Virus record (IMG/VR): IMGVR_UViG_3300043419_000606
Coordinates: 1 to 31,458 of that record
Strand: one strand, 5' to 3'
Length of the DNA: 31,458 nt
Source: a virus
Position 1 is the first letter of the stretch. Each line of letters starts with the position of its first letter. Positions 18,674 to 24,537 of this stretch are shown in pieces. The translations under genes and the position numbers were made by a program. The notes beneath the pieces were generated by a model that was not told where the DNA came from, did not search any database, and saw only the letters and a list, made by a program, of their open reading frames with translations.

Positions 18674-18778
18674 CTACCAATATTTAAAAATAAAATGTAA
18701 TACTACAAACCAAAATCCTAAGGCAATAAAAAAAATAAAAATAGCTCCTAAAATTTCTAAAAAATTTTCCTTACTCAT
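18674..18778 (-). CDS. 34-residue membrane microprotein
   Basis: MSKENFLEILGAIFIFFIAL with a strongly hydrophobic core to residue ~30 and end FIFKYW. One transmembrane helix. The ATG overlaps the end of the preceding gene (GAGTAA), so translation is likely coupled. Function unknown. Confidence 0.6.
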   Translation of the reverse strand: MSKENFLEILGAIFIFFIALGFWFVVLHFIFKYW

Positions 18779-18998
18779 AACTTTTACTATTTAAATTTAT
18801 AAAAAAATTTTGAATTTTATTTATTAAATTGTCATAATCTGACTTAATCCAAACTTGAGCTTTTATATCCGAGTAAAAAAACATTCTGCAATATTCTTTT
18901 GAATGCTCTCCTCCCTCTTCGATATATCTAATATCATTTAAATCAATTATAACTCTCCGATCTTTGTTGTCAATAAATTCTAAAAAATATCTATTCAT
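18771..18998 (-). CDS. Hypothetical protein, first gene of the accessory operon
   Basis: A 75-residue protein starting MNRYFLEFIDNKDRRVIIDL. A longer form from 19043 (90 residues) is possible, but the internal ATG has the A/T-rich leader usual here. The sequence is beta-rich (EYCRMFFYSDIKAQVWIKSD) and may be a PH-like or small regulatory fold; not recognised. It is preceded by a TAnnTTTG promoter and a hairpin in its leader. Confidence 0.65.
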   Translation of the reverse strand: MNRYFLEFIDNKDRRVIIDLNDIRYIEEGGEHSKEYCRMFFYSDIKAQVWIKSDYDNLINKIQNFFINLNSKSYE

Positions 18999-19029
18999 AA
19001 TTATAAAAAATAAACCCTCCTCGATTGCT

Positions 19030-19092
19030 ACCGCCAAGCGCAAAAGAAAAGGGAATTATTAAATACTTTACTTTGGCGGTTGTACAAATATA
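19030..19092 (-). promoter_or_regulatory. Promoter with leader hairpin for the accessory operon
   Basis: A TATATTTG box lies at 19085-19092 (host-type TAnnTTTG), with TTAGGATAT about 21 bases upstream, the same string as upstream of the 24353 box. Downstream, ACCGCCAA and TTGGCGGT (19073-19080 and 19030-19037 on the plus strand) form an 8 bp stem around a 35-base loop in the leader. The palindrome AATAATATTATT at 19092-19103 overlaps the box and could be an operator or mere AT bias. Confidence 0.55.
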
Positions 19093-24007: not shown

Positions 24008-24246
24008 AATAAATTACTTAATGAATTGTTTAAAATATTTTTATCTTTTCTTTTTACTTTTGAATTAAAAAATGGAGGGTAAATTTCAAATGCAAATAAC
24101 ACAAAAGCTCCGGCGCTTATTTTTTTATTATCAATTTCATAAAAAGAATAATCTCCATTAATTTGAGGTTTCAAAATAATGCCTTTTTTATTTTCGACAT
24201 TACCATTTTCATAGACTTTATAGCCTAAATAATTTTTAAATTTCAT
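24001..24246 (-). CDS. Small HNH/NUMOD4-like protein lacking catalytic His
   Basis: An 81-residue protein. The start (YLGYKVYENGNVENKKGIIL) resembles the NUMOD4-like DNA-binding segment of homing endonucleases. The end (VKRKDKNILNNSLSNLLW) aligns with the HNH_3 core (V-x-H-x-D-G-N-x-x-NN-x-x-x-NL-x-W). The catalytic His is Arg here, and the upstream His of the beta-hairpin is also missing. It therefore looks like an inactive or repurposed HNH protein that may still bind DNA. It is the first gene after a structured leader and overlaps the primase gene by 7 bases. Confidence 0.65.
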   Translation of the reverse strand: MKFKNYLGYKVYENGNVENKKGIILKPQINGDYSFYEIDNKKISAGAFVLFAFEIYPPFFNSKVKRKDKNILNNSLSNLLW

Positions 24247-24249
24247 ATT

Positions 24250-24348
24250 TTTAAAAAAGACAAAACCCCTAAAGAGCCATCACACATCTTTAAGGGTTTG
24301 TCTGTTGCTAAAAAATTAGCAATATTTTCCTGTAAGTGATGGTTTACT
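24250..24348 (-). ncRNA. Structured leader with terminator-like hairpin
   Basis: Transcripts from the 24353 promoter would begin near 24347 with a ~100-base leader before the 81-residue gene. It holds three stems: a weak 4 bp stem at 24332-24347, a 7 bp stem TTGCTAA/TTAGCAA at 24304-24321, and a long imperfect stem of 24258-24275 with 24287-24303 followed by a T run that looks like an intrinsic terminator. The loop of the last stem (24276-24286) contains a 7-base match to the first loop (CCATCAC with GTGATGG), allowing a kissing interaction. Suggests attenuation control of the replication operon. Confidence 0.5.
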
Positions 24349-24352
24349 TTTA

Positions 24353-24360
24353 CAAAGATA
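24353..24360 (-). promoter_or_regulatory. Promoter of the replication operon
   Basis: TATCTTTG on the minus strand matches the Bacteroidota -7 element TAnnTTTG. A TTAG lies 19 bases upstream at the usual place of the -33 box, as part of TTAGGATAT, also seen upstream of the 19085 box. Confidence 0.6.
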
Positions 24361-24403
24361 TAAAATACTTTTTAATATCCTAATTTTTTTTTTATTTTTT
24401 TTT

Positions 24404-24509
24404 AATAGTACACATACAACACATTTTTTTGGAAAAAGTACCCACCCATATAAAAATAAAAAGTTTAAATATATGTGGGTATAGGAAAAGGGTTAAAATG
24501 TGTACTATT
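24404..24509. other. Nested inverted repeats, candidate replication origin
   Basis: AATAGTACACAT at 24404-24415 has a perfect 12 bp inverted partner ATGTGTACTATT at 24498-24509. Inside, TACCCACCCATATA (24439-24452) and TATATGTGGGTA (24470-24481) pair over 12 bp with a 2-base bulge. Long A/T tracts flank the structure on one side (24382-24403). It lies in the only long non-coding gap, between the candidate ssDNA-binding gene and the primase-helicase operon. An origin or another protein-binding or regulatory site is plausible; this is unproven. Confidence 0.45.
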
Positions 24510-24511
24510 GC

Positions 24512-24537
24512 AAAAAAAAGGAGGACATAAGCCCTCC
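24512..24537 (-). terminator. Intrinsic terminator after the early operon
   Basis: On the minus strand GGAGG and CCTCC form a 5 bp GC-rich stem around an 8-base loop (a G-T pair can extend it to 6 bp), followed by eight T. It lies about 30 bases past the stop of the candidate ssDNA-binding gene. Confidence 0.85.

Follow-up and report, generated by a model that had tools for sequence, protein, structure and literature searches.

Kissing-Loop Leaders, Putative Transcription Attenuators Upstream of Primase and Other Genes in Phages of Flavobacterium and Probable Relatives

Introduction

General transcription attenuators are built from a promoter, a short untranslated leader, an intrinsic terminator and a regulated gene. 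The plasmid antisense systems ColE1 RNA I/RNA II and pT181 rely on kissing loops of about 7 nt, which lead to attenuation in pT181, and the kissing partner in these systems is an antisense transcript of the opposite strand. In phages, the immunity of P4 is established by a processed CI RNA (seqA/seqC) which, in the parts of the article considered here, is described to pair in trans with two sites and to silence the replication genes in lysogens (PMC4825925). According to the same parts, IsrK of Gifsy-1 is a short RNA running from a phage promoter to an intrinsic terminator, its read-through form being the downstream mRNA; the short IsrK acts in trans on the translation of this read-through form, and no comparable conserved loop-loop pairing is described there (PMC4825925). 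The put RNA of HK022 is a nascent phage RNA element that acts during the transcription of early genes (PMC9378689).

The leader that we describe here, located upstream of the primase gene of a phage contig, can be compared with each of these systems. Its order of parts is that of a general attenuator; however, in place of a leader peptide or an identified antiterminator that excludes the terminator, this leader and others of its design carry a conserved kissing helix between the 5' end and the terminator loop. In contrast to ColE1 and pT181, both kissing loops belong to one transcript, and between positions 24063 and 24774 no promoter (TAnnTTTG type only) was found on the plus strand from which an antisense RNA of the plasmid type could start. 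The leader resembles that of P4 by RNA-RNA pairing in a phage replication operon and by its predicted premature termination (PMC4825925, parts considered here), whereas the complementary pair lies here inside one leader, and such leaders precede many types of genes, also in virulent phages. The occurrence of the units in virulent isolates and before homing endonucleases does not fit an RNA immunity of the P4 type. No integrase was found among the window genes tested, and lysogenic immunity as the purpose of the units was rejected, since the virulent isolates mumin9-1 and hattifnatt9-1 carry them. While put suppresses pausing and termination (PMC9378689), the leaders here end in a terminator. 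P4 CI RNA, IsrK and put RNA are thus the nearest phage relatives by function, and none of them is built in this way according to their descriptions, for the first two as given in the parts considered.

Gene control in Bacteroidetes phages is little known. The leader architecture described here, the kissing loops of which covary very clearly, recurs in about 30 sequence classes. No description of the kissing leader design was found in the open literature, most subscription papers and preprints being outside the search.

Results and Discussion

The Leader Upstream of the Primase Gene

The window, i.e., the whole stretch of DNA that was analyzed, corresponds to one viral contig (31,458 bases), in which the unit before the primase gene is read on the minus strand. 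A preliminary description had proposed a TAnnTTTG promoter that gives rise to a leader of about 100 bases with three stems, the last one being followed by a T run directly before an 81-residue gene. This layout was confirmed, and all coordinates proved to be correct, the 7-mers having been given in plus-strand letters. The -7 element TATCTTTG (24360-24353, minus strand) is of the Bacteroidetes type and has the same position in leader-carrying relatives; the -33 element TTAG (24380-24383, minus strand) is located 19 nt upstream of it. In the Bacteroidetes promoter consensus, TTTG/TANNTTTG, the G is found at -5 and transcription starts 5 nt after it (PMC6847099). From this promoter geometry and the position of the terminator we infer a leader RNA of about 96 nt (24348-24253, minus strand), which would begin near 24348 and end in the T run. 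The covariance model of class A, the class of the window leader, matches it at 24353-24253, the window itself being a member of the model.

The stem of hairpin 1, GTAA[ACCATCAC]TTAC (24347-24332, minus strand), starts at about +2, and its kissing loop reads CCATCAC (CCAUCAC in RNA; 24342-24336, minus strand). Hairpin 2, TTGCTAA-TTTT-TTAGCAA (24322-24305, minus strand), is located in the linker; a hairpin of unrelated sequence is present at this position in most class A members. The intrinsic terminator hairpin (24303-24258, minus strand) carries the kissing loop GTGATGG (GUGAUGG in RNA; 24283-24277, minus strand), is directly followed by a run of six T (24258-24253, minus strand; U in RNA) and lies 12 nt before the ATG (24246) of an HNH-like gene. 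Its stem is strong, with about -22 kcal/mol. Folded as minus-strand RNA, the three stems reach -29.8 kcal/mol in comparison to -16.65 +/- 2.87 in shuffles (z -4.6). A loop match of at least 7 nt was obtained by chance in 95 of 5000 dinucleotide shuffles of the 5' part alone, and because p is only about 0.02, the single sequence is a weak proof of kissing. The search for known RNA families proposed in the preliminary description, which had not recognized a known riboswitch class, yielded no Rfam family (release 15) overlapping the tested units at E values up to 0.5-1.

Covariation of the Kissing Helix

Sequences related to the primase and to the 229-aa protein encoded upstream were collected, and the DNA between both genes was compared. 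Most of the closer relatives carry a leader that follows a TAnnTTTG promoter and precedes the primase ATG, the sequences of these leaders being very different. Even primases that are 98-99% identical are preceded by unrelated leaders (GTGGTAG type in contig L002, CATCTAC type in L004), and each such leader contains a 5' element of 6-10 nt that is complementary to the apical loop of the terminator hairpin. Unrelated leader classes before near-identical primases imply that leaders have been swapped as modules. Contigs L004 and L003 likewise differ in the region before the primase, with leaders of unrelated classes and nearly identical primases.

Class A was extended using the pattern of the terminator stem, with the loop left free. 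All 84 loop-pair cells of its 12 members are Watson-Crick pairs, despite five different loop types (CCATCAC, CTACTAC, GCTCTAC, GCACTAC, and GCTCAAC), and five of the seven kissing pairs differ on both sides between members. Class E members were gathered with a loop-free pattern as well, and every member identified by stem and promoter shows the 7-nt match. The kissing cells of this class are paired throughout (196/196 in 28 members), with compensatory double changes at 5 of 7 pairs, and the terminator stem itself is maintained by compensatory changes; covariation of the whole structure amounts to 0.473 in comparison to 0.112 when shuffled and at most 0.072 when slid. In the phages mumin9-1 and hattifnatt9-1, leaders that are otherwise near-identical occur in GTGGAACG and GTGAGACG versions, each with its own exact partner. 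Since both the loop pairs and the stem are kept by compensatory changes, the terminator stem is considered real, and on these alignments the kissing helix is almost certainly real too. The complementarity of CCATCAC and GTGATGG noticed in the preliminary description is thus genuine: the alignment with related phages that it had suggested revealed compensating changes in homologous leaders of classes A and E, the absence of which was to speak against the proposal. Diversifying selection on the loops was also considered and rejected, as the kissing helix of class E changes no more than the stems.

Distribution of the Units

A scanner requiring a promoter, a complementary 5' element, a hairpin and a T run was applied blindly to 2.56 Mb (both strands, around the relatives) and detected 167 units, in comparison to a single one in 0.75 Mb of shuffled window. 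In the sequence collected, 151 distinct units consisting of promoter, kissing pair, terminator and gene were found, which belong to about 30 sequence classes; a few singletons among them (e.g., in L012, L108, and L284) are not directly followed by a gene and probably represent chance matches. Of 48 arrangements of promoter, hairpin, T run and ATG in about 30 phage contigs, 35 contain the kissing match, and none of the other 13 has the look of a convincing leader. A scan of viral contigs with the pattern of class D was discarded, its matches being mostly due to chance.

The window contains a second unit (19084-19009, minus strand), which follows the cytosine methylase gene and is conserved in relatives. 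Its promoter TATATTTG (19092-19085, minus strand) precedes a 5' element, ACCGCCAA (19080-19073, minus strand), that begins at about the expected +1, and the terminator hairpin (19060-19009, minus strand) presents the loop TTGGCGGT at 19037-19030. A 75-aa ORF starts downstream at 18998 (minus strand), the unit together with this ORF spanning 18771-19092.

Units are also present in cultured phages. Both mumin9-1 (at least two units) and hattifnatt9-1 (at least three in the part of the record examined), phages of Flavobacterium sp. LMO9, are cultured virulent isolates, and elemoF 6-3D (Flavobacterium sp. BAL314) has at least one unit in the part of its record examined. Direct testing should therefore be feasible, and if the leaders work as attenuators, many naturally compensated loop pairs are on offer for their dissection. 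Alignable class E leaders are present in 34 phage records of Flavobacterium. Judging from these occurrences, the kissing leader design probably represents a common means of metering gene expression in phages of Flavobacterium and probable relatives. The DNA of the window leader showed no similarity above chance to phage records. In 299 genomes from the family of one Flavobacterium MAG, only three weak class A matches were obtained, none with a kissing unit; these model searches of host genomes were insensitive, with about 14 candidates scored per genome. Two contigs of the Flavobacterium MAG Ww15 (L586 and L595) contain a primase of the window type without a kissing leader before its start.

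Shared Anatomy and Alternative Explanations

In 148 distinct units, the hairpin gives way to 8 nt with 57-86% T, behind which come A-rich sequence and then the ATG. The distance between the end of the hairpin and the ATG has a median of 15 nt and does not exceed 25 nt in 105 of 112 units; a gap of about 15 nt leaves no room for a second promoter. The start of the 5' element is mostly found at a distance of 3-15 nt from the promoter; for classes lacking hairpin 1, the beginning of the kissing element falls at about +1 (the transcription start being taken 5 nt after the -7 box). With either hairpin 1 at about +2, as in the window, or the kissing element at about +1, the 5' end of the RNA is therefore tied up.

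An apparently buried 5' end and structure at both ends would also suit a stable and abundant small RNA of 80-100 nt whose targets, host factors or other RNAs, lie elsewhere, the next gene being incidental. However, an independent RNA would not need the tight distance from hairpin to ATG, and about 30 unrelated sequences at equivalent places fit a leader better than they fit a conserved partner in trans; we regard this explanation as unlikely. The lack of a free 5' tail might likewise indicate that the structure stabilizes the 5' end of the mRNA against 5'-end-dependent decay, in which case the T run would merely belong to an AU-rich translation start region. Translation in Flavobacterium is in fact affected by upstream sequence and by structure near the start codon, but the base favored before its start codons is A and not T (PMC6847099), and in the units T follows the hairpin directly while A prevails only from about 8 nt on, which makes a stabilizer rather improbable. 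The position directly after phage promoters at the heads of operons and the compact nascent RNA are compatible with a promoter-proximal RNA that modifies RNA polymerase in the way of HK022 put, i.e., by antitermination, with the kissing helix as its folded core. We consider such a function highly improbable, given the terminator-type U run that follows the hairpin in nearly all units and the opposite effect of put on pausing and termination (PMC9378689).

The linker to the terminator is always at least 10 nt long, with a mode of 18-21 nt, which fits intramolecular pairing; no correlation was found between linker length and stem length. The terminator loop of the best-covered classes is closed, with a size of about 8 nt, one unpaired base plus seven pairing bases. 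Considering also the compensated stem, kissing and a closed terminator can therefore coexist. Class E terminator stems are weak (about -12 kcal/mol) and have a large internal loop. In L121:2884-2975 and similar leaders, the internal loop GAGTA/GAAA of the terminator resembles the bulged-G (sarcin-ricin) motif, and possible tandem G-A pairs occur at the level of this internal loop in other classes. A linker motif, AYATTA, is shared across classes by 6 of 37 representatives (1.7 expected, p 0.0035); it lies in AT-rich sequence and was picked post hoc.

Between zero and four units are found per genome, and loops within one genome always differ, including all five pairs of units that belong to the same class. 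Private loops of this kind might point to a control of dosage in trans, where terminated leaders would pair with nascent ones and a rising copy number would decrease read-through into the primase, similar to P4 CI or plasmid control. Self-complementary loops indeed permit pairing between molecules, and the replication primase is the commonest downstream gene. In the form of copy counters, orthogonal kissing RNAs of flavophages would recognize nascent like leaders in trans by their private loops, and if this were true, read-through into replication and endonuclease genes would be linked to the number of phage genomes per cell. However, the difference between same-class loops is not significant (estimate about 0.1), for which reason loop orthogonality within genomes was not accepted, and the linkers have sufficient length for pairing within one molecule, which should prevail. 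In class E, the rate of change of the kissing helix does not exceed that of the stems, and the presence of units in virulent phages argues against lysogenic immunity as a general purpose. Control in trans is thus quite improbable, and its copy-counter form equally so.

A Candidate Transcription Attenuator

We favor, with a probability of roughly 0.6, the interpretation that the leader attenuates transcription in cis close to its promoter, with a kissing helix of 7-8 bp as a brace of the terminator hairpin. This interpretation builds on the promoter, the compensated kissing helix, the compensated terminator stem, the U run and the fixed distance to the next gene, all of which can be read from the sequences. 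Promoter, short leader, and hairpin with U run directly before a gene are arranged as in an attenuator, and the leader is likely to act in cis on the next gene.

RNA polymerase would start at the host-type promoter and synthesize a leader of 80-100 nt, the 5' end of which (a hairpin loop here, a bare 5' end in other classes) would form 7-8 bp with the terminator's apical loop. The RNA would thereby be tied end to end in one compact fold, and most transcripts would be expected to terminate at the end of the leader. Only read-through transcripts would reach the gene, with its ATG about 15 nt further on, in the window the HNH-like gene and then the primase. The level of read-through might be changed by a protein, by the speed of transcription or by phage dosage. 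In this way the attenuator would set the amount of transcription into replication genes, homing endonucleases and other phage genes.

Termination as such, the action in cis, the formation of both pairings in one molecule and a kissing helix that supports termination instead of blocking it are predictions of the attenuator model. The preliminary description had suggested that kissing could switch the terminator on or off. While the pairing of the loops was confirmed, a simple on/off switch was not supported, considering the closed terminator loop of about 8 nt and the compensated stem. No conserved structure competing with the terminator was seen by inspection, and the conserved pairing spares the stem. 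Since the stem is left intact, kissing may serve as a brace of the terminator, or of the RNA that ends there, instead of excluding it. That kissing helps termination is possible, although somewhat less likely than not. The weak stems of class E could depend on the kissing brace, and because some other stems are strong enough alone, kissing might serve the stability of the RNA and not termination. If the attenuator model is true, tertiary loop-loop bracing of a terminator joins the known transcription controls.

Downstream Genes and Neighborhood

The leader does precede a replication operon in the window, as had been stated in the preliminary description; however, the design is not special to such operons. 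Primases are most often found downstream of the units, but also HNH and GIY-YIG homing endonucleases, helicases, a cytosine methylase, an endolysin-like protein and small genes (names other than primase were assigned by sequence inspection), and the second unit of the window is a further example. Several relatives of the primase lack any leader, so that the leader is not essential for replication genes. An HNH or GIY-YIG homing endonuclease is located downstream in 26 of about 30 class E units. Class E leaders and their homing endonuclease genes (e.g., L015:4219-4302, L044:5481-5563, L057:4670-4751, and L463:3890-3974) appear as if they formed one mobile cassette.

The gene directly downstream of the window leader is not the primase itself but an HNH-like insertion of 81 aa (24246-24001, minus strand; phrog_959 HNH, E 1.4e-7), which is missing at this site from nearly all close relatives. 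The primase/helicase gene (BT4734-like N-terminus, PriCT_1; 24007-21677, minus strand) overlaps its end. A scan with the 81-aa sequence found no relatives, and a small conserved protein as the target of the leader was ruled out, the gene being an insertion whose own scan gave no relatives. Aligned with a full-length HNH protein, the 81-aa gene product shows loss of the HRL and NH motif histidines, and the gene may represent a defunct homing endonuclease retained in a different role. L153 has a copy with 44% identity at the corresponding position.

The stretch from the upstream gene to the promoter contains a long inverted repeat (24406-24513), AATAGTACACAT ... ATGTGTACTATT with an inner pair of C-run and G-run, which looks like the replication origin. 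The repeat is maintained in close relatives, and its arm sequences differ in more distant ones. A close relative has an Rfam DUF805b RNA (RF02914), detected above the gathering score, at L002:786-818, upstream of its replication module.
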